From positions 558,001 to 622,000 of the forward strand of contig NZ_CP019646.1 of the NCBI RefSeq assembly GCF_001999965.1: DNA of 64,000 nt. Reading direction: 5' to 3'. Source of the stretch: Limihaloglobus sulfuriphilus (GTDB lineage: Bacteria; Planctomycetota; Phycisphaerae; Sedimentisphaerales; Sedimentisphaeraceae). Below the pieces are notes generated by a model. The model made no database searches. It was not told where the DNA came from and saw only the letters and a list, made by a program, of their open reading frames with translations. The translations under genes were made by a program, and so were the position numbers. This document shows, one piece after another, positions 1,377-10,919 of the stretch (its first letter is position 1; each line of letters opens with the position of its first letter).

Positions 1377-3272
1377 TTATTTACTGAAACATTTTTCGAT
1401 GTGCTCTTTGTCCGAGGGTTTGGTAATTAATGTCAGAACTATGAAAACCAACAGGGACAGCGGCAGAGCGACAAAGCATGGATCGACGTTCGGCCAGTTG
1501 TGGTGTCCCTCAAGGATTGAGGTTTTTCCGTCCGTAACTATCTGGACCAGACCGATGGCAACAGCTTCCTTTGATTTTACCAGCAGCAGCCAGAATATGG
1601 TAACCGCAACACCCGTTAACATTGAGCCTATCGCCGCAATTTTTGTTACACCCTTGAAGTAAAGCCCGCCAATCAATGCAGGCAGGAAAGATGAAAGGCA
1701 GACACCAAAAAATATGGCTGTAGCACGGGCAACAATGTAGCCTCCCCGGGTAATAAGACTAAGCCATATAGCGATTAACATGCCAACCAGGATACTTATT
1801 CGGGTTACATTAACTGCGGAAGCCTTCTTGTTAGTCAGCATCACAAACACATCGTGCCCGAAACTGCTGCCAAGAGTGTGGAACTGGCTCGATAAAGTGC
1901 TCATTCCCGCAGCAAGAAGCGTCAAAAGCAGTAGAGTGCCAAACCATTTTGGCAGTGCCGAGCCGATAAATTCAGGAATTATACTGTCTGTGTTAAGCAT
2001 CCATTTATCTTGACCAAAAGAGGTTACAGACCTCATAAAAGCTGTCGCCCGAGGTTTGACCTCTATCATGCCGTTTTCCAGATAAGAAATCTCAGCTTTT
2101 GGCAGAATTGGCCGTGTATCGCCTACAACTTGACCATCTTTAACTATTTCAATACCGTTGGCTATTATGTGAACGTCCGGGGCAAGGTCCCCGTTAGTGT
2201 CTATATGCAAAAGCCTGCACGGGATAGTCTTTTCTTCAAGCCTGGTCTTTTTCGCGATTACGGCTGTTTGTTCATCAGCGATGAGTTTTCCCGTAATAAC
2301 CTCTTTATTATAGAAGTATGCGTTAGATAGGCTTGCCACAACAAAAGCGGTTCCGGTCATCAGCAGGATAAAGATAGAGCCGATCATGACACCCCTGTTA
2401 AGCTCCTGCTGTCCTTTAACTGTCATAAAACGGACGCTGAGCTGAGGCTGAGCCAATACTCCAAAGCCTACGCCGCATACAATACTTGAGATGAGAATCC
2501 ACCACAGATCGTATTTAGGATCGCCCCAGCCGAATTCGGGCATTCTTGTCCAGCCTCTGTGGCCTATGGCTTTGAATCCAACAAATACCTGGTCACTCAT
2601 TGCCGTCACCTCTTCGTGGGCCGCGGTAATGCCGCCAAACATTTTATAGCTCATGAAAAGCAACGCAACCATAGAGATCAGCATTATCGTTCCCTGAAGA
2701 GCGTCTGTGTACATAACTCCCTTTAATCCTCCGCTTATTACATACGCGGCAACGATTGAACCAAAAAGAAACAGAGCAACGTTGTAATTGATTTGGAAAT
2801 GGGATGTTATGAATTCACACCCGCCTATGAGAACCGCGGCCGAATAGAGAGGAATAAAAATAGTTATGATCAGTCCGGCCAGTATCTGAATTGATTTACT
2901 CTGGTATCTCTTGCCAAGCAGCTCTGCAAAAGTATGTGCACCGAGATGGTGCCCCATACGCCGCGTACGTCCGCCAATGAAAACGAAACTTATAAAGATG
3001 CCTACAAAAATGTTCAGCACAGTCAGCCACAGTGTTCCCATACCGAACATGCCGGCAACACCTCCAAAGCCCACAATGGCACTAGTTGAGATGAATGTTG
3101 CTCCGTAACTCATAGCCATTACAAATGGGTGGGCATTGCGGCCGGCTACAAGATAGTCTGCCGTGTTTTTAGTTTTTTTGTACCCTAACCATCCAAGGCC
3201 AAGAATAGCAAGAAGATAAATAAAAACAAGAATCAATTCAAAACCAGAAGTCGCGGCTAATACAGACCCCAT
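1377..3272 (-). CDS. Sodium:solute symporter (SSS family) with a large extracytoplasmic insertion
   Basis: The 631-residue product is a polytopic membrane protein with the SSS core: an N-terminal helix followed by GYKKTKNTADYLVAGRN, the helix-1 segment SYGATFISTSAIVGFGG, and the signature GGLKGVMYTDALQGTIM near residues 181-197. The family couples Na+ influx to uptake of sugars, carboxylates or amino acids across the inner membrane. Between two membrane segments (about residues 322-430) lies a hydrophilic insertion of roughly 100 residues, with HIDTNGDLAPDV and further polar, strand-like sequence; this is longer than usual for the loop. A Shine-Dalgarno-like AAGGTAGG precedes the ATG. The gene is divergent from a GntR regulator and a catabolic run, so the imported compound is probably the substrate of that run (inference). 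The substrate cannot be read from sequence. Confidence 0.9.
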   Translation of the reverse strand: MGSVLAATSGFELILVFIYLLAILGLGWLGYKKTKNTADYLVAGRNAHPFVMAMSYGATFISTSAIVGFGGVAGMFGMGTLWLTVLNIFVGIFISFVFIGGRTRRMGHHLGAHTFAELLGKRYQSKSIQILAGLIITIFIPLYSAAVLIGGCEFITSHFQINYNVALFLFGSIVAAYVISGGLKGVMYTDALQGTIMLISMVALLFMSYKMFGGITAAHEEVTAMSDQVFVGFKAIGHRGWTRMPEFGWGDPKYDLWWILISSIVCGVGFGVLAQPQLSVRFMTVKGQQELNRGVMIGSIFILLMTGTAFVVASLSNAYFYNKEVITGKLIADEQTAVIAKKTRLEEKTIPCRLLHIDTNGDLAPDVHIIANGIEIVKDGQVVGDTRPILPKAEISYLENGMIEVKPRATAFMRSVTSFGQDKWMLNTDSIIPEFIGSALPKWFGTLLLLTLLAAGMSTLSSQFHTLGSSFGHDVFVMLTNKKASAVNVTRISILVGMLIAIWLSLITRGGYIVARATAIFFGVCLSSFLPALIGGLYFKGVTKIAAIGSMLTGVAVTIFWLLLVKSKEAVAIGLVQIVTDGKTSILEGHHNWPNVDPCFVALPLSLLVFIVLTLITKPSDKEHIEKCFSK

Positions 3273-3329
3273 ACTACCTACCTTTACAGTTAAATAATAC
3301 TCATGTTTTATGTACCTACGTTGCTTTGT

Positions 3330-3357
3330 ATAGTAACTTTTTCTAAGTGTAATTCAA
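3330..3357 (-). promoter_or_regulatory. Candidate sigma70-type promoter of the symporter gene
   Basis: On the minus strand TTGAAT (3352-3357) and TACTAT (3330-3335) are separated by 16 bases, about 58 bases upstream of the symporter ATG. This is a pattern match only; the surrounding DNA is AT-rich, so chance matches are expected. Confidence 0.35.
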
Positions 3358-3576
3358 GCAAAAAACATAAAGTTGGTATAATTATTTTTATGAGGCAAAT
3401 TTTCAAGGTCTTGCGTATTATAATATTCTCGATTCACAACATAAATGAACCGGATTTTTTTAAGTGATTTATTCAAATGAAATTATCCCGTTAACTGCCG
3501 AGGGGGAAATCTCTATTGTCAGTGTTTAGTAATATGCACGGATGTATTGAAAGAAAATGTTTATAACACAAAAAAG

Positions 3577-3592
3577 TTTTGATGTATCAAAA
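3577..3592. promoter_or_regulatory. 16-bp palindrome over the -35 box, candidate GntR operator
   Basis: TTTTGAT-GT-ATCAAAA is a perfect inverted repeat that covers the -35 hexamer. FadR-subfamily GntR regulators bind short palindromes of this size and often repress their own promoter, so the adjacent regulator is the obvious binder. Assignment to that protein is inference. Confidence 0.5.
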
Positions 3593-3606
3593 ACGCATGT
3601 TATAAT
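3579..3606 (+). promoter_or_regulatory. Promoter of the GntR-led catabolic run
   Basis: TTGATG (3579-3584), a 16-base spacer and a perfect TATAAT (3601-3606) lie 32 bases before the GTG start of the regulator gene. The -35 box falls inside the palindrome at 3577-3592, which suggests direct repression of this promoter. Confidence 0.6.
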
Positions 3607-3608
3607 TC

Positions 3609-3626
3609 AATAAAATATGTTTTATT
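3609..3626. promoter_or_regulatory. Second AT-rich palindrome just after the -10 box
   Basis: AATAAAA-TATG-TTTTATT is a perfect 7-bp inverted repeat beginning three bases after the -10 hexamer. It could be a second operator half or a small RNA hairpin in the leader. Because only A and T form the arms, chance is a real alternative. Confidence 0.3.
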
Positions 3627-3638
3627 CAGATAATTGAT

Positions 3639-4334
3639 GTGGCAAATATAGATTTTCAGACAAAGATAGTTACCGGACAAACTGAAAACACACTTTCACA
3701 GCGTGTTTATAGTCTTTTATGCGACGAAATAGTCAACGGTGAGCTTGTTCCGGGAGAGAGACTTACCCGAAGAGGGCTTAGCAAACGTCTTGGGGTCAGC
3801 CAGAATCCCGTTACAGAGGCGCTGATGCGGCTTGAACGGGACGGTTTTGTGGAAAATAAACCGCTCTACGGCTGCCGTGTCAGGGTGTTGACGATTGAAG
3901 ATGTGGAAAACGATCAGATACTCCGCGAAGCAATTGAATGTCAGCTTGTAAGGCTATGCTGTGAATATGCTTGTAATTCAGACCTTGCAGCCCTGATGAT
4001 GAGGGCGGCAGAGCTTGACAGAATCACCACACAGGGAGACCCTGAATCAAGGCTTGGAATGCGGCTCCATCTGGAGTTTCATATGCTTATTGGAGAGTTC
4101 GGAAAAAAATGCCCGTATCTCGTTAATGAGCTTGAGCGGGTTTGGCTCAGGAGTCTGATGCGGCTCAACTGGGTGAAAAGTGCGTTGTTCTGCGCTCTTC
4201 CTGAAGACTGGCATCAGCAGCTGGTAGAAGTTATTAAGGACCGCAACCCGGATGCCGCTGAGGCCAAAATGCGTAAACATGTAAAAATGAATGAACAGTA
4301 CGATATTAAAACATTAGAGTTTTTAAACAGATAG
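3639..4334 (+). CDS. GntR-family transcriptional regulator, FadR/FCD type
   Basis: The 231-residue protein has an N-terminal winged helix (about residues 18-80; LSQRVYSLLCDEIVNGELVPG, LTRRGLSKRLGVSQNPVTEAL, RLERDGFVENKPLYGCRV), which is the GntR DNA-binding domain. A mostly helical C-terminal FCD-type ligand domain follows (about residues 88-225), with residues that may form the usual metal and carboxylate site (H143, H147, H209). The start is GTG at 3639. No Shine-Dalgarno site is visible, and the ATG two bases earlier is out of frame. It is the first gene of the run and ends 8 bases before the dehydrogenase gene. FCD regulators usually sense organic acids or sugar acids; here it probably controls both the downstream genes and the divergent symporter (inference). 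Confidence 0.9.
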   Translation: MANIDFQTKIVTGQTENTLSQRVYSLLCDEIVNGELVPGERLTRRGLSKRLGVSQNPVTEALMRLERDGFVENKPLYGCRVRVLTIEDVENDQILREAIECQLVRLCCEYACNSDLAALMMRAAELDRITTQGDPESRLGMRLHLEFHMLIGEFGKKCPYLVNELERVWLRSLMRLNWVKSALFCALPEDWHQQLVEVIKDRNPDAAEAKMRKHVKMNEQYDIKTLEFLNR

Positions 4335-4342
4335 AGGTAAAA

Positions 4343-5314
4343 ATGAAACTGAAAGTTCTTGTAGAAGAAGGTATTTATCAACGTTCTTTAGCTGATTTCC
4401 AGCAAGCGGGAGATATAGATTTTGTGCCCGCCGCCCGTGAAGAAAAAGCCCTGGCCGAACAGGTCAAAAGTTCCCAATCGGCGGCAGTGTTACTGGCTAC
4501 AGACAAATATACAGGCCCGCTCTATGATGCCCTGCCCGAGGGTGCTCTGATTGCACGCTACGGTGTCGGACATGACGGGGTTGACAAGGCAATAGCCGCG
4601 AAAAAACAACAACATGTTACAATAACTCCAGGTGTACTGGACGTTTCGGTAGCAGAACATGCTGTATTTCTGATGGGGGCACTCGCCCGCAATATCGCCG
4701 GCACTGATGCGGATATAAAAAAAGGCGGCTGGCTTAAATCTTCCGGCATAGAACTAAAGGACAAAACACTGCTCATACTCGGCTGCGGCATGATAGGCCG
4801 CCGTACCGCCCGAATAGCCAGTTTTGGTTTTGGAATGAATGTAATTGGTTATGATACGGCAGAGCTTGACGCCGAGCAGATGAGAAATGAGTACGGTATT
4901 GGCAAAATAGCGGCATCACTCGATGAAGTTTTGCCGGTTTGTGATTTTGTCTCGGTTCATCTGCCGTCTATAGAAGCGACCAGGGATTTCATTGATGCTG
5001 ATTTTATTTCAAAAATGAAGCCCTCAGCTTTTATTGTAAATACAGCTCGCGGCGGCGTTTTAGATGAAGCTGCACTTTACGATGCGCTGGCAGGCGGTAA
5101 ACTTGCCGGAGCGGCACTTGATGTGTTCAAGAAGGAGCCTTATGAACCGGCGCAGCCGCAAAAGGATCTTCGCAAACTCGATAATGTTGTCCTTGCCTCA
5201 CATCTTGCAAGCAGCACTCTCGAGGCCTCATCACGCATGGCTCAATGTGTTATAAAAAACATCAGAGCATGGGCTAAAAAGGATTACAACAGCATGAATA
5301 TTGTGACGGAATAA
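4343..5314 (+). CDS. D-isomer-specific 2-hydroxyacid dehydrogenase (PGDH-like)
   Basis: The 323-residue protein has the two-domain fold of NAD-dependent D-2-hydroxyacid dehydrogenases. The nucleotide loop is GCGMIG at residues 147-152, and the catalytic residues are in place: R236 (NTARGG), E265 (VFKKEP) and H287 (ASHLASST). These enzymes interconvert 2-hydroxyacids and 2-oxoacids in the cytoplasm. It lacks the C-terminal ACT domain of many biosynthetic SerA proteins, and it sits in a catabolic run after a GntR gene. It more likely handles a pathway hydroxy acid than serine synthesis, although the closest named family is phosphoglycerate dehydrogenase. GAGG lies 8 bases before the ATG. Confidence 0.88.
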   Translation: MKLKVLVEEGIYQRSLADFQQAGDIDFVPAAREEKALAEQVKSSQSAAVLLATDKYTGPLYDALPEGALIARYGVGHDGVDKAIAAKKQQHVTITPGVLDVSVAEHAVFLMGALARNIAGTDADIKKGGWLKSSGIELKDKTLLILGCGMIGRRTARIASFGFGMNVIGYDTAELDAEQMRNEYGIGKIAASLDEVLPVCDFVSVHLPSIEATRDFIDADFISKMKPSAFIVNTARGGVLDEAALYDALAGGKLAGAALDVFKKEPYEPAQPQKDLRKLDNVVLASHLASSTLEASSRMAQCVIKNIRAWAKKDYNSMNIVTE

Positions 5315-5324
5315 AACAAACCAG

Positions 5325-6419
5325 ATGAAATCGGACGTAAATGACTGGGCTTTGGGCAATGCGGGAAAGATTCTCTCCAAAGAGACTCTTAATCATCCTG
5401 GAATAATCTCAAAAGTAAGCAGGCTTGATGTTTATGGAAACACACCAGAAGCCTATCTCAGGGCTTACGAGGCTCTGGGAATAGATATTATAAACCGTGT
5501 TCCTGCGGAAAACGCTCCTGCGCCGGCAGAATTCGCAGAGAAACGTTATCACCCTGATAAACCATATTCATTTACGTCACTGGGTGTTTATGATACAGCT
5601 TTTCGCGAAAGGTTTGAGGTTTCCAGCCCTGAAGATGTCTATTCTCTGGATATTGATTCTCTCAGGTATGACGATTTAATCGTACCTGTGCCGCATCCTT
5701 GCTCTCGTGATGACATCAAATTTCGAGAGAAACTGCTTGGCGGTACGGGCATGTATTACCCTATGCTGTACACTACACTTTTCATGTGGGCGGTTGAGAC
5801 ACTCGGCTGGGAAAATTTTATGGTAGCCGCCATAACGGAGCCGCAACGGTTTACCAGACATTTTTTTGAGCCGTGTGCGGAAAAGTCGCGAAGAATTGTA
5901 GATGAAATAGCAGAGGCGAGTGAAAATCCATTCATTTTTCTGCACGATGACCTTGCCGACGCCAACGGGCCGGTATTCCCGCTGGCCTGGTATGAGGATT
6001 GTATATTCCCGTTTTATAAGAAGATATTCGAGCCGGCAAAAAGGCGGGGCAAAAAGATAATCTTTGTAGCTGACGGTAATATGACCGTTTTTCTGCCGCG
6101 GCTGGTTGAATTGGGCGTTGATGGAATAATGTGCGAAAATCCCGCAACGCCTCTTGAGTCTGTAATGGAGCATTTCGGCGGCAGCGGCGGATATATTATT
6201 GGCGGAATCGACACGGCACGGCTTACGATGTCTTCACCTGATGATATAAGCTTAATGGTGCAGCAAGTTTACAACACGACAAGAGACTGTTCAGGTTTTG
6301 CCGTTTCAAGCTGCGGCGGTCTGCATGGAAATATACCAATGGAAAACTTAGATGCCTATTTTGATGCGAGAGTCCGTATAGGGGCTACGCCGGCAAATTG
6401 GCGAAATTATTTTGATTAA
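5325..6419 (+). CDS. URO-D family protein 1 (methyltransferase-like, atypical active site)
   Basis: The 364-residue protein has the URO-D/MtaA TIM-barrel pattern: HDDLADANGPVFPLAWYED, then IIFVADGNM, then LVELGVDGIMCENPAT and YIIGGIDTARL. Family members are uroporphyrinogen decarboxylases or zinc methyltransferases that move methyl groups from corrinoid proteins. Where the methyltransferases carry a His-x-Cys zinc site, this protein has ADGN (residues 249-252), so it should not bind zinc there. True HemE motifs were not seen, so heme synthesis is unlikely. It lies 10 bases after the dehydrogenase gene and 17 before the aldolase gene, clearly one transcript. The exact reaction is unknown. Confidence 0.8.
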   Translation: MKSDVNDWALGNAGKILSKETLNHPGIISKVSRLDVYGNTPEAYLRAYEALGIDIINRVPAENAPAPAEFAEKRYHPDKPYSFTSLGVYDTAFRERFEVSSPEDVYSLDIDSLRYDDLIVPVPHPCSRDDIKFREKLLGGTGMYYPMLYTTLFMWAVETLGWENFMVAAITEPQRFTRHFFEPCAEKSRRIVDEIAEASENPFIFLHDDLADANGPVFPLAWYEDCIFPFYKKIFEPAKRRGKKIIFVADGNMTVFLPRLVELGVDGIMCENPATPLESVMEHFGGSGGYIIGGIDTARLTMSSPDDISLMVQQVYNTTRDCSGFAVSSCGGLHGNIPMENLDAYFDARVRIGATPANWRNYFD

Positions 6420-6436
6420 CACGAAAGGATGATAAA

Positions 6437-7207
6437 TTGAAAAATAAATTACGTAAATCACTTCTGGATAATGAAATAACACTCGGAGCTTGGATGCAGA
6501 TAGGTCATTGCGGCATAGCTGAGGTATTTGCCAGGGCCGGTTTTGACTGGGTCTGCGTGGATCTTGAGCACGGGGCGATCGACCTCGAAACCATGACGGA
6601 TATTTTCCGCACACTTGATGCTTTTGACTGTGTGCCGGTCGCGAGGCTGCCGCTTAATGATCCGGTGTGGATACACCGCAGTCTCGATGCCGGCGCCAGA
6701 GGCCTTATAATTCCCATGGTGAACTCCGCTCAGGAAGCCGACGCGGCGGTAACAGAGGCTAAATACCCTCCAAGAGGACGCCGCGGTTACGGTTACAGCC
6801 GCGCAAACATGCACGGGATGGATTTTGAAAGTTATATACAGTCCGCTAACGATGAGATTGCGATGATTATGCAGATTGAGCATAAAGACGCCATTGCGAA
6901 TCTCGAGGAAATTGTCAAAGTTGACGGTGTTGACGGTCTGTTTATTGGACCGCTTGATTTAAGCGGTTCCATGGGGATAACCGGCCAAATGCAGCACCCT
7001 GATATGGTCGCGGCACTTGCAAGATACCGCAAAGTCGCCGAGAATGCAGGCCTTAGTTATGGTATGCATATCGTTCGGCCGGACGAGCAGAATATAAAAT
7101 CAAACGTCGCAGACGGTTACACGATGATCGCCCTGGGGCTTGACAACGTTTTTATCGACGAGAGCTCCAAAGCAGCACTAAATGCCGTCGGCAGGAAAAG
7201 AGATTAG
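6437..7207 (+). CDS. HpcH/HpaI-family class II aldolase
   Basis: The 256-residue protein matches metal-dependent aldolases such as HpaI and the 2-keto-3-deoxy-sugar-acid aldolases. Visible motifs are VCVDLEHGAID, VARLPLNDPVWIHRSLDAGA, GLIIPMVNS, IMQIEHKDAIANLEEI (metal-binding Glu) and VDGLFIGPLDLS (metal-binding Asp). Such enzymes cleave 4-hydroxy-2-oxoacids into pyruvate and an aldehyde in the cytoplasm. The start is TTG at 6437 with AAAGGA 7 bases upstream. With the 2-hydroxyacid dehydrogenase it suggests that a hydroxylated or sugar-acid carbon skeleton is broken down here. The aldehyde specificity cannot be read from the sequence. Confidence 0.9.
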   Translation: MKNKLRKSLLDNEITLGAWMQIGHCGIAEVFARAGFDWVCVDLEHGAIDLETMTDIFRTLDAFDCVPVARLPLNDPVWIHRSLDAGARGLIIPMVNSAQEADAAVTEAKYPPRGRRGYGYSRANMHGMDFESYIQSANDEIAMIMQIEHKDAIANLEEIVKVDGVDGLFIGPLDLSGSMGITGQMQHPDMVAALARYRKVAENAGLSYGMHIVRPDEQNIKSNVADGYTMIALGLDNVFIDESSKAALNAVGRKRD

Positions 7208-7208
7208 T

Positions 7209-8279
7209 ATGTTTTATTCAATCGAACAGCGAGTAGAAAACTTTAAAAAGTTTTACAAGCGAGAGAATGACAGGCCGCTGCTGGGTTTTTTTGTAGAATC
7301 GGAATATCCGCTTCACAGGTACCCGGCTTCTAAATCATTGCCGCAAGGGAGGCCGCTTGCGCCGGACGATTTTGTTGTTGAAAATTATCTGGCCGACTAT
7401 GATTCTCTTTTTGACCGGCATGAAGCCGCCGGGGGAGATTTTATCTGGGCGGCCAGTTCATTCTGGGGGATTCCGTGGATAGAAGCCGCTATGGGGTGCA
7501 AAATAATTGCAGACCACAATACCGGTTCAATACATGCTGAAACGCCTGCTGATTTTGATGGGGAAATGCCAGAGTTTGATATTGATAATCCCTGGGTTCA
7601 GAAAGGCATAGAGTATCTGGACAAAATTTCATCGCATTGCAATGGCAGATATCCCCTTGCCACTCCGAGGCTTCGCGGCATATCTGATGTTCTTGCCTGT
7701 CTATACGGGAATGAAAGTTTTGTCTTCAAGTTTTTCGAATCTCCGGAAAAAATCGATGAACAGGCTGCAAAAATTACCGATTTCTGGATCAGTTTTGCCA
7801 AAACGCAACTTGAGCATATTCCTGAATTTCACGGAGGTATCGGCTCATTCTATTATAATATGTGGGCACCGGCCGGCACTGTATGGCTCCAGGAAGATGC
7901 GGCAGCCCTGTTGAGCCCCGATATTTTCCAGCGGCATATCCTCGGCTGCGTTAAACAAATAGTTGCCTCTTTTAACGGCTCTATTGTTCACATGCACCCC
8001 ACAGGATATTATCCTTATGCGGAATACCTGCCCACAGATATGCTGGCTCTCGAACTGCATATTGACGAGGGCGGCCCGTCTGCCGAAGAACTTTTTGAAG
8101 TCCACAGCAAAATACTGGCTCACAAGCCGCTGCTCGTCTGGGGAGCTATACCGGAAAAAGACCTTGACTGGATATTTTCAAAATTGCCGGCAAAAGGGCT
8201 TGCTGTTCTGAACGCACTCGACAGGAAGCAGTTAGAATCAGGTGAAAATGAACGTTTATATGAGAAGTATATACAATGA
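7209..8279 (+). CDS. URO-D family-like protein 2 (divergent)
   Basis: I place the start at the ATG at 7209 (MFYSIEQRVENF) because AGGAAAAGAG stands just before it; an in-frame ATG at 7182 would overlap the aldolase gene. The 356-residue product resembles the URO-D barrel only in outline: the segment around YNMWAPAGTVWLQEDAAALL, then IVHMHPTGYYPYAEYLP, LALELHIDEGG and LLVWGAIPEKDL. At the position of the methyltransferase zinc site it has HMHP (residues 261-264), two histidines instead of His and Cys. Metal binding is possible but would use different ligands. The stop overlaps the next start as ATGA, which indicates translational coupling. The function is unknown. Confidence 0.72.
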   Translation: MFYSIEQRVENFKKFYKRENDRPLLGFFVESEYPLHRYPASKSLPQGRPLAPDDFVVENYLADYDSLFDRHEAAGGDFIWAASSFWGIPWIEAAMGCKIIADHNTGSIHAETPADFDGEMPEFDIDNPWVQKGIEYLDKISSHCNGRYPLATPRLRGISDVLACLYGNESFVFKFFESPEKIDEQAAKITDFWISFAKTQLEHIPEFHGGIGSFYYNMWAPAGTVWLQEDAAALLSPDIFQRHILGCVKQIVASFNGSIVHMHPTGYYPYAEYLPTDMLALELHIDEGGPSAEELFEVHSKILAHKPLLVWGAIPEKDLDWIFSKLPAKGLAVLNALDRKQLESGENERLYEKYIQ

Positions 8280-9358
8280 TGAGCTCAAAAGAACGATTTG
8301 CCGCCGCACTATCCCACAGAGAGCCTGACAGGGTGCCGATAGATTATCTTGCATCACCGCAGGCTGACGCGGCCGTAAAGAAATATTACGACATAAATAC
8401 CGAAACAGAACTGCTCGATATACTCGGCAGCGATTTTTATTATCTTTCTTGCAGAGATATTTCTCAAAATGAATCCTGCCTGCCGTTTTATCGCGGCAGC
8501 AGAGCAAAGATTGACGGAGAGAGGCGTATTTGCCCTTTCGGGATAGAATGGCAAAGGGGGGCGTATGACTCAAAATTCGCGGTTGATGATTCAATTCAAG
8601 GCCCCCTCAAAAATGCCCAGAGTGAGAGTGATATACTTGAATACAGCTGGCCTGAGGTAAGCGAGTTTGATTTTTCCGCTTTCGGCAGCGAGATTGAGGC
8701 GAACAGAGGGCGGGTGATCGTCGGCGGTTTCTGGTCGGGGATTCTTGGCGACTGCTACAGAATGATGGGATTCGAGAATTTCTTGCTGAATATAGCTCTG
8801 AAACCTGACATGGTCAAAACATTGATCAACAGAATGACCGATTTCTACTTAGAAATGAATAACAGTCTATTTACACTTTTTAAAGGTAAAATTGATATCT
8901 GGTTTTTTGGCAATGATTTCGGCTCTCAGTCAGGTCTGCTTTTCAGCAGGGAAATGATAGAGGAATTTTTTGTTCCGGGAATCAGAGTCTTGAGCGATAA
9001 TGCCAAATCTCACGGATTAAATGTTATGATGCATTCATGCGGCGCAATATCAGAGGTTGTACCGATGTTTATTGATGCCGGAGTCGAGATAATTGACCCT
9101 GTACAGGTTACAGCTGTTGGAATGGACCCGCAGAGCTTAAAAGATTCCTGCGGGGACAAAGTTACGTTTCACGGAGGTATTGACACCCAACATCTTTTGC
9201 CAAACGAAGATGCCCAAAGAGTTTATGCCGAATCCAGAAGAATAATCGACATAATGTCAGCAGGCGGCGGTTATATATTTGCCCCGAGCCAGATTCTGGG
9301 CGGAGATATTCCCGCGGAAAATATTGATGCTATGTACAGGGCGGCAAGATCCTGTTAA
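8276..9358 (+). CDS. URO-D family protein 3 (MtaA/CmuA-like methyltransferase candidate)
   Basis: The 360-residue protein starts with MMSSKERFAAALSHREPDRV, the typical opening of URO-D family methyltransferases, and keeps the barrel segments IDIWFFGNDFGSQSGLLFS, NVMMHSCGAI, GVEIIDPVQ and KVTFHGGIDTQHLLP. H253 and C255 fit the His-x-Cys zinc site of MtaA/CmuA-type enzymes, which activate a thiol methyl acceptor. A third cysteine could be C292 or the C-terminal one. The start at 8276 overlaps the previous stop (ATGATG; either ATG is possible). Of the three paralogs here it is the one most likely to be a real methyltransferase. No corrinoid-binding protein is encoded nearby, so the methyl donor is unclear. 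Confidence 0.83.
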   Translation: MMSSKERFAAALSHREPDRVPIDYLASPQADAAVKKYYDINTETELLDILGSDFYYLSCRDISQNESCLPFYRGSRAKIDGERRICPFGIEWQRGAYDSKFAVDDSIQGPLKNAQSESDILEYSWPEVSEFDFSAFGSEIEANRGRVIVGGFWSGILGDCYRMMGFENFLLNIALKPDMVKTLINRMTDFYLEMNNSLFTLFKGKIDIWFFGNDFGSQSGLLFSREMIEEFFVPGIRVLSDNAKSHGLNVMMHSCGAISEVVPMFIDAGVEIIDPVQVTAVGMDPQSLKDSCGDKVTFHGGIDTQHLLPNEDAQRVYAESRRIIDIMSAGGGYIFAPSQILGGDIPAENIDAMYRAARSC

Positions 9359-9611: not shown

Positions 9612-10919
9612 ATGGCTAATATACCACAACCCAGCTTGTTTTGCTACCAAAATGTTGAAAATCTCGGAGATTTAGAGCGGCTCGACCTGTTACTCAAGAC
9701 GCTCGACGATGAACAACTAATGCAAACACTCGAAAAACGCCGCGGCAATGGACGTGATGACTACCCGATACGGGCCAGTTGGAACTCAATGCTTGCCGGC
9801 ATCGTATTTGGGCACAACACCATCGAAGCTCTTCGCCGGGAGCTTTCTCGCAACGGTCAGCTCAGGGATATCTGCGGTTTTGATCCTCTCAAAGAGCACC
9901 CGGTACCATCATCAAACGCCTATACCAACCTGCTCAAGTCGCTTATGGAGTATCCGGCAGAAGTAGCCGGTATTTTCCAGAATCTTCTGGAGTGTCTTGC
10001 CCGGGAACTGCCCGGCTTTGGTCAGCGTATAGCGATTGACAGCAAAGTCATCCAGAGTGCGGCAAACTCCGGTTCAGAAAATAAGCCTGACGGCAGAAGG
10101 GATACTGACGGCGGCTGGGCAACAAAAACTTACACAGATAAAAACGGTAAGATTATCAAAAAAACAACGATATTTGGTTACAAGGTTCATCTGGCAGTGG
10201 ATGCCAATTATGAACTGCCGATAGCACGTATCGTAACGCCGGGTAATGACAATGATATGTTAGAGGCGTACAATCTGGTTGACGCCTGTCCCTCAAAGGC
10301 TCTTGAGAAGTGCGAATATCTCTCGGCAGACAAAGGCTATGATTGCGGCGATTTCAAGCTATGGTTATGGAAGGAGCACGATATACGTGCTGTTGTTGAT
10401 ACTCGCAATATGACGCAGTTGGAACATAGCCCGGTTGAAGGCCTTGACAGGATATATTACAACCAGCAGGGTGAGGTGTTCTGCAAGTGCTGCAAGGGGG
10501 GAGAACTCAACAAGATGTGCAACAGGGGTTTTGAGAAGGATAGAGACAGTATCAAGTTCGGTTGCCCGGCACACCATCAAGGGCTGACATGCCCCGCATC
10601 AGGGAGTTGTCCAATTGGCAAGAGTATCAGGATCGGGTTGGAAAAAGACCCGCGTATCTTTATGGCTTTGCCGCGGGACAGCTATAAATGGAAAGACGAA
10701 TACAAAAAACGGACTTCTGTCGAGAGGGTCAACAGTCGGCTCGATGTCTCCTTTGGTTTTGAAACTCACTATATTCGAGGCCTTAAAAAAATGCAGATGC
10801 GAGTAGACCTGGCACTGATCACGATGTTAGGCACGGCATTGGGGTACGTGAAAACCAAGCAGCCGCACTACATACGCTCACTGGTTAAATCAGAGTCGAT
10901 CAAAATATCAGCCGCATAA
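9612..10919 (+). CDS. Transposase, DDE type (IS1182/IS5-like)
   Basis: The 435-residue protein has an N-terminal helical region of the DUF772 kind (ASWNSMLAGIVFGHNTIEALRREL) and an RNase H-like catalytic core. The likely triad is D143 (IAIDSKVIQS), D240 (LSADKGYD) and E371 (TSVERVNSRLD). Between the last two lies a cysteine-rich insertion, with CKCC at 291-294 and further cysteines to about 333, which looks like a zinc-binding insert. AGGA lies 7 bases before the ATG. The frame is intact over its full length, so the enzyme is probably functional. It catalyses cut-and-paste or similar movement of the element by acting on the inverted repeats. Confidence 0.9.
   Translation: MANIPQPSLFCYQNVENLGDLERLDLLLKTLDDEQLMQTLEKRRGNGRDDYPIRASWNSMLAGIVFGHNTIEALRRELSRNGQLRDICGFDPLKEHPVPSSNAYTNLLKSLMEYPAEVAGIFQNLLECLARELPGFGQRIAIDSKVIQSAANSGSENKPDGRRDTDGGWATKTYTDKNGKIIKKTTIFGYKVHLAVDANYELPIARIVTPGNDNDMLEAYNLVDACPSKALEKCEYLSADKGYDCGDFKLWLWKEHDIRAVVDTRNMTQLEHSPVEGLDRIYYNQQGEVFCKCCKGGELNKMCNRGFEKDRDSIKFGCPAHHQGLTCPASGSCPIGKSIRIGLEKDPRIFMALPRDSYKWKDEYKKRTSVERVNSRLDVSFGFETHYIRGLKKMQMRVDLALITMLGTALGYVKTKQPHYIRSLVKSESIKISAA

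Follow-up and report, generated by a model that had tools for sequence, protein, structure and literature searches.

What do three divergent proteins of the URO-D superfamily contribute to a bacterial operon that otherwise encodes a regulator, a class II aldolase and a D-2-hydroxyacid dehydrogenase? The operon in question lies in a window of 64,000 nucleotides of the Limihaloglobus sulfuriphilus genome (assembly GCF_001999965.1, contig NZ_CP019646.1, positions 558,001 to 622,000), and coordinates below refer to this whole stretch unless the genome is named. Our analysis makes it very probable that the operon serves carbohydrate-acid catabolism, in which a sugar or sugar acid is taken up and broken down. 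For the three barrels, the best model, which we hold tentatively, is that they act in this catabolism as corrinoid-linked O-demethylases; the genome-wide evidence suggests that such UroD relatives remove methyl groups from sugars without oxygen. The operon comprises six genes.

3639..4334, plus strand: GntR/FCD transcriptional regulator with a GTG start (Pfam GntR 3.6e-14, FCD 7.5e-14)
4343..5314, plus strand: HADH, D-2-hydroxyacid dehydrogenase (Pfam 2-Hacid_dh 6e-52)
5325..6419, plus strand: URA, URO-D superfamily barrel (Pfam URO-D 1.8e-13)
6437..7207, plus strand: HpaI, HpcH/HpaI class II aldolase with a TTG start (Pfam HpcH_HpaI 3.5e-38)
7209..8279, plus strand: URB, divergent URO-D-fold barrel (Pfam URO-D 18.5 bits, under the 23.9 cut-off)
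8276..9358, plus strand: URC, URO-D superfamily protein (Pfam URO-D 3.1e-19; TIGR01463 8e-13)

The six genes are tightly packed, with gaps of 8, 10, 17, 1 and -4 bases between consecutive open reading frames (ORFs) from the GntR gene to URC, and the operon is real. ORF and Pfam calls bear out all gene positions given in a first-pass annotation of this DNA, which was made from the letters alone. Its picture of a compact, regulated catabolic unit likewise fits the tight operon, the regulator, a divergent symporter, the aldolase and the dehydrogenase. It had also called the route complete, which goes too far for an operon lacking a dehydratase, a kinase and a glycosidase.

A genome-neighbourhood search, suggested as a check by the same annotation, showed that the gene set recurs in unrelated genomes with carbohydrate genes around it, and because of this recurrence it is beyond chance. 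HADH, HpaI and URB form an adjacent run in a Bacillota contig (L062; 38, 44 and 54% identity) and in a Phycisphaerae contig (L065; 46, 72 and 54%). A 44-kb planctomycete contig of GWF2_41_51 (MHXZ01000105.1, G042) carries URB, URA (62%), HADH (51%) and HpaI (77%) in one region, which also encodes a sulfatase-like protein, two BNR_2 proteins, two esterases (SASA and GDSL), an MFS-like transporter and one more URO-D protein. Elsewhere an IclR regulator, HADH (33%), an MR_MLE dehydratase, URB (54%) and URC (50%) occur together (L070), as do relatives of URB and HADH with an MR_MLE gene (G050). Further URB neighbours are a GH20-type hexosaminidase (L068) and a NagB-like gene (L067), both read from the sequence, a Pfam-confirmed BNR gene, also in L067, and an ABC-transporter ATPase (L069). 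To judge from these gene families, carbohydrate catabolism is the common theme of the module's contexts. The openly licensed literature, outside which subscription journals mostly lie, yielded neither a published pathway that matches this gene set nor anything direct on URO-D proteins in carbohydrate operons or on corrinoid-dependent demethylation of methyl-sugars. As far as could be searched, the operon is thus conserved and undescribed, a new combination of known enzyme families.

URB also occurs in other settings. On two planctomycete contigs (L064 and L066) it is followed by a large calcineurin-like phosphoesterase-like gene and one resembling a glycerophosphodiesterase gene, a second conserved URB context. 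A transporter of the Nramp family lies by URB in L065 (Pfam) and L063 (by eye), and such or similar-looking genes, that of L110 included, stand next to URB or close to URA; they are perhaps organic-solute rather than metal transporters. The Bacillota contig carries a FAD_binding_2-type oxidoreductase near URB (L062:7396-9372), whose start resembles, by eye, that of a FAD_binding_2-type oxidoreductase in the source genome (L083:6519-8546) near a URO-D gene with KDG-kinase- and KDPG-aldolase-like genes.

Both non-barrel enzymes are secure members of their families. HADH scores 176 bits against a Pfam cut-off of 25.1, matches PDB entry 1wwk over its full length (5e-46) and has orthologs in L065 and G042 at the identities given above. 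It groups by sequence with the phosphoglycerate dehydrogenase / glyoxylate-hydroxypyruvate reductase family, which it resembles from end to end but whose equivalog cut-offs it does not reach (208 bits for TIGR01327). HpaI, whose counterparts on the same two contigs are 72 and 77% identical, scores 131.5 bits against a cut-off of 25 and matches solved HpaI, GarL-type and YfaU structures over its full length (PDB 4b5s/2v5j, 5e-46; the 4b5s alignment spans residues 1-246). It nevertheless stays under every NCBIfam equivalog cut-off, the best score being 201 bits where 368.8 are required, and is not an HpaI, GarL or YfaU in the strict sense. HpaI-family aldolases release pyruvate by cleaving 4-hydroxy-2-keto acids; hydroxypyruvate is used by some of their relatives. 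Aldol cleavage and reduction of a 2-keto acid would make a natural pairing here, since HADH groups with hydroxypyruvate reductases.

URA and URC belong to the UroD/MtaA superfamily by the Pfam cut-off, and URC, which matches the MtaA and CmuA models, is the closest of the three to these methyltransferases. URB is placed there by its fold and by profile comparison (hhalign probability of 94% against other URO-D proteins). Its AlphaFold model (pLDDT, the predicted local distance difference test, 90.7) matches MtaA (4ay7) with Z 21.2 and a root-mean-square deviation of 3.4 over 305 residues; HemE structures are tied with MtaA (6w2o, Z 21.0), and MetE comes next at Z 15. Because the modelled fold matches 4ay7 so well, URB is, as modelled, a URO-D/MtaA barrel despite its sub-threshold Pfam score. 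Searches of the PDB with the single sequences of URA, URB and URC gave no relevant match, and neither did one with a URB profile. The URA model is poor (pLDDT 60, built on five distant sequences); UroD chains head its fold list at Z ~15, and we used it for that list only, so that all active-site statements below are independent of it.

The three barrels, which the first-pass annotation had called divergent, are old and distinct relatives of the heme enzyme UroD, each having its own orthologs in other bacteria. A tree of 50 proteins places URA (100/100), URB (100/98) and URC (100/100), each with its orthologs, in separate supported clades. URA orthologs of 57-63% identity are found in three genomes of the order (G042, G034 and G057), and URB orthologs of 50-61% on contigs of Planctomycetes, Phycisphaerae, Spirochaetes, Bacillota and Verrucomicrobia. 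Within the phylum URB is rare: it occurs in 3 of 392 genomes at E<=1e-25, the source genome included, and none of the four same-family genomes searched yielded it. We also considered that a single gene had been triplicated recently and rejected this, as the tree puts URA, URB and URC in three clades.

The active sites bear directly on what the barrels could do. Both an alignment to 32 of the genome's further URO-D proteins and a profile-profile alignment pair the HSCG motif of URC (H253, C255) with VADG in URA and with H263-P-T-G in URB; ADGN and H261-M-H-P, the counterparts first proposed for it, are out of register. At the His-x-Cys...Cys positions URA has Val, Asp and Gly, the His being replaced by Val and the Cys by Asp (D250), and it carries HDD at 207-209; its orthologs retain HDD and DG and lack the metal His and Cys. 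URB keeps the His (H263), has Thr for Cys and lacks the third ligand. Two residues before H263 stands a further invariant His (H261, giving HxH), and E282 and D286 are also invariant among the ten relatives aligned; from this conservation, H261/H263 and E282/D286 could build a different metal site. URC has His, Cys and Gln, the third Cys ligand of MtaA being replaced (APSQ versus APGC).

All three thus depart from the His-Cys-Cys of the zinc-dependent S-methyltransferases of the UroD superfamily (MtaA, MtbA and Mlp), and by these alignments none of them is a complete zinc thiol methyltransferase site. Nor can it be maintained that only the third protein fits a zinc methyltransferase, as first proposed: URC lacks the third ligand, and a zinc-free corrinoid methyltransferase of the UroD superfamily, the chloromethane methyltransferase CdmB, is known (PMC13222342). 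While S-methyltransferases of the superfamily keep His-Cys-Cys, O-methyltransferases swap one or both Cys for carboxylates or non-ligands (Kountz and Balskus, PMC10418091). Since UroD O-methyltransferases lose Cys ligands and CdmB works without zinc, the incomplete sites are compatible with methyl transfer, and by analogy the loss of Cys in all three is a ligand pattern permissive for O-demethylase function. Among the 35 tabulated URO-D proteins of the genome, only two have His-Cys-Cys (L001 and L004) and eight have His-Cys-His, the rest being varied; 30 of the 32 other than URA, URB and URC depart from His-Cys-Cys as these do. Across the paralogs the metal positions range widely, including H-C-H, H-C-D, H-C-N and D-D-H.

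A corrinoid-dependent demethylase of the UroD type needs a corrinoid protein and a reductive activase, and the genome (3.87 Mb in one contig) encodes both. It was initially noted that neither is present, which is correct for the window and incorrect for the genome: a single methyltransferase-type corrinoid protein of 207 aa is encoded ~53 kb upstream of the operon (genome 508222-508845), nearest to the MtgC and MtbC models (206 bits, MtgC-like). Genes for two AcsV/RamA-like activases also lie outside the window. The only Pterin_bind protein of the genome is dihydropteroate synthase (DHPS), and the genome yielded no folate-linked enzyme suited to loading the corrinoid protein, MttB-type methyltransferases not having been searched for. 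Because no such loading enzyme was found, the URO-D proteins are the obvious candidates for the enzymes that deliver methyl groups to it. They are numerous: 35 Pfam matches, URB itself and a further two that URB retrieved make 38, that is, 35 in addition to URA, URB and URC.

The same association is seen across the class. In 198 class genomes, the corrinoid activase RACo occurs in 74 of the 77 with at least five URO-D genes versus 27 of the 121 others (Fisher p ~3e-27). Among the matches listed, 60 of 64 genomes without URO-D genes have a MetH-sized protein as their best B12-binding_2 match; of 53 genomes with at least five URO-D genes, 35 have a stand-alone corrinoid protein in that place.

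Several observations concern these genes individually. First-look URO-D candidates number up to 80 in class relatives. Many of the paralogs in the source genome adjoin regulators, symporters and sulfatase-like genes, with a GH106 gene at L079 and sialidase-like and kelch-like genes at L080. One locus (L002:1429-3138, genome 1925610-1927319) encodes a 569-aa fusion in which an MtaA-like URO-D domain is joined to two thioredoxin-like domains, and a gene for a CobW-like GTPase comes next; from its domains, the fusion is possibly a redox-linked methyl acceptor unit. The corrinoid protein gene (L075:9223-9846) adjoins a divergent gene resembling hydantoinase and the acetophenone carboxylase alpha subunit (L075:10118-12181; genome 508-511 kb), with no methyltransferase gene beside it.

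From these elements we infer the following order and direction of events in this anaerobic planctomycete. The divergently encoded SSF symporter would import a sugar or sugar acid, probably an O-methylated one; a methylated sugar or hydroxy acid, the initial guess at the substrate, is possible. The UroD barrels (URC at least being methyltransferase-like) would pass its methyl group or groups to cob(I)alamin on the lone corrinoid protein, whose gene lies elsewhere and which the two RACo/AcsV-type activases would keep active. From there the methyl group would move to a thiol (homocysteine) via the H-C-C URO-D paralogs or homocysteine S-methyltransferases. The HpaI-type aldolase would split the demethylated acid into an aldehyde and an acid of the pyruvate or hydroxypyruvate type, and HADH would interconvert 2-keto and D-2-hydroxy acid, for example by reducing hydroxypyruvate to glycerate. 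The GntR/FCD protein would repress the divergent promoters until substrate is present. The presence of three barrels would reflect either three substrates or positions of methylation, or a division of labour in which URC is the methyltransferase and URA and URB carry out other steps.

Algal, plant-xylan and animal glycans commonly contain methylated sugars. The only route for removing sugar methyl ethers known to us uses oxygen, in the P450 attack on 6-O-methyl-galactose, and we know of no established route by which methylated sugars are opened anaerobically. If true, oxygen-free demethylation of sugars would be a new route, and the conserved three-barrel operon, together with a corrinoid protein lacking a folate-linked donor, makes it directly testable. 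A wider proposal, which we regard as rather doubtful, is that the URO-D expansion of anaerobic planctomycetes and their relatives consists of corrinoid-dependent sugar O-demethylases in glycan and sugar-acid operons, sharing one corrinoid protein and feeding methyl groups to methionine. The present operon would then belong to this series, its three barrels representing three different active-site designs. UroD-fold proteins of this kind are widespread in environmental genomes under the name of a heme-enzyme family.

By analogy, the workings of the operon are most like those of the three-component UroD methyltransferase systems MtvB, OdmB, VdmB and CdmB. The corrinoid methyltransferases I of this group (CdmB, PDB 9rui; MtvB, OdmB, VdmB and MtoB) belong to the same superfamily as the barrels, and profiles of the URC type (E=2.4e-4) and the URA type (E=0.009) reach CdmB. 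The substrates of these systems are haloalkanes or methoxylated aromatics, and each system comes with its own corrinoid protein and methyltransferase II (MT-II), in contrast to the operon, which has neither locally and has sugar-gene neighbours. The methylcobamide:coenzyme M methyltransferases MtaA and MtbA (4ay7) share the fold of URB, the URC type of sequence and the HxCG of URC, whereas the operon lacks His-Cys-Cys, shows no evidence of a coenzyme M pathway and has a sugar-catabolic context.

Several results weigh against the barrels being O-demethylases. No corrinoid protein, activase or MT-II is encoded in or beside the operon or anywhere in the window, and no neighbouring gene is diagnostic of a methylated sugar or names the substrate. 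Methyl transfer is unpredictable for URA, which lacks the metal His and Cys, and for URB, which lacks the Cys and the third ligand. The associations of URO-D genes with RACo and with B12-binding types are correlations that may stem partly from anaerobic life and shared ancestry, and sulfatases near URO-D paralogs are not significantly enriched in a crude count (7 of 143 versus 1 of 57 ORFs).

The main rival is a possibility we take seriously while thinking it improbable on balance: that the barrels are repurposed, corrinoid-free UroD-fold lyases, isomerases, decarboxylases or hydrolases acting on the carbon skeleton of the sugar acid. URB H261/H263 and E282/H284/D286 would then hold another metal, and URA would be metal-free like HemE. 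The HxH and the E/D pair of URB, (near-)invariant in the ten relatives where Cys is absent, argue for it, as do the HDD and DG kept by URA orthologs, the lack of local corrinoid genes and the MR_MLE acid-sugar dehydratase gene beside URB in L070 and G050. It is at odds with URC, which retains HxCG and matches the MtaA and CmuA models, with the URO-D expansion that tracks the corrinoid activase across the class, and with the general knowledge that, HemE apart, the known members of the superfamily transfer methyl or alkyl groups (PMC13222342). If the barrels are not methyltransferases, the HxH site of URB and the metal-less VxD site of URA would represent new chemistry on the UroD fold.

Distinctly less probable is that the corrinoid protein and activases serve a split methionine synthase only, the co-occurrence with URO-D genes being incidental and the operon an ordinary sugar-acid pathway with unrelated accessory barrels. 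The genome indeed encodes neither MetE nor a MetH-size protein and has two genes of the homocysteine S-methyltransferase family (PF02574), and some RACo genomes are poor in URO-D genes (27 of the 198 class genomes hold RACo with fewer than five, four of these with none). However, with DHPS as the only candidate there is no methyl-folate:corrinoid methyltransferase, so that the usual donor of the corrinoid protein is lacking, and URO-D gene number strongly tracks RACo.

Methyl transfer to or from thiols or selenols, in a salvage of methyl-sulfur or methyl-selenium compounds like that of type 1 mlp clusters, is very unlikely. Those clusters (Kountz and Balskus 2023, PMC10418091) also occur in anaerobes, group several divergent UroD genes, lack an H4folate methylase and belong to genomes with a corrinoid protein and activase. 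Their Mlps, however, almost invariably keep the His-Cys-Cys that none of the three barrels has, and Mlp2, Mlp3, a corrinoid protein and Ram stand in one cluster; the operon has no local corrinoid protein or Ram and no sulfur or selenium genes, and its HADH and HpaI are foreign to such clusters. As these defining features are missing, and a local corrinoid protein and MT-II are lacking, we file the operon under neither the mlp clusters nor the three-component systems. Finally, that URA, URB and URC are simple HemE paralogs, which the first-pass annotation had named as a refutation of its own reading, was rejected despite the common superfamily and fold: none matches TIGR01464 at E<=0.01, and none pairs in the tree with E. 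coli HemE, which clusters with the paralogs L001-L003 (95/81, long branch).

Three further features flank the operon.

1377..3272, minus strand: SSF transporter of the Na+:solute symporter family, divergent from the operon (Pfam SSF 4e-48)
3273..3638, no strand: divergent intergenic control region of 366 bases between the SSF and GntR genes
9612..10919, plus strand: DDE transposase, 254 bases past the operon end (Pfam DDE_Tnp_1 2.3e-12)

The SSF transporter, which reaches no specific NCBIfam equivalog, is the probable uptake protein. Consensus matching in the control region predicts an extended -10 sigma-70-like promoter at 3579-3606 (TTGATG-16-TATAAT). This is overlapped by an inverted repeat, TTGAT-GT-ATCAA (3579-3590), with a partial second copy at 3634-3646, likewise found by consensus match; the repeat is a candidate GntR operator. 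The transposase is outside the function of the operon and marks its edge. Its position immediately 3' of the operon and the rarity of URB in the phylum point to a possible horizontal acquisition.

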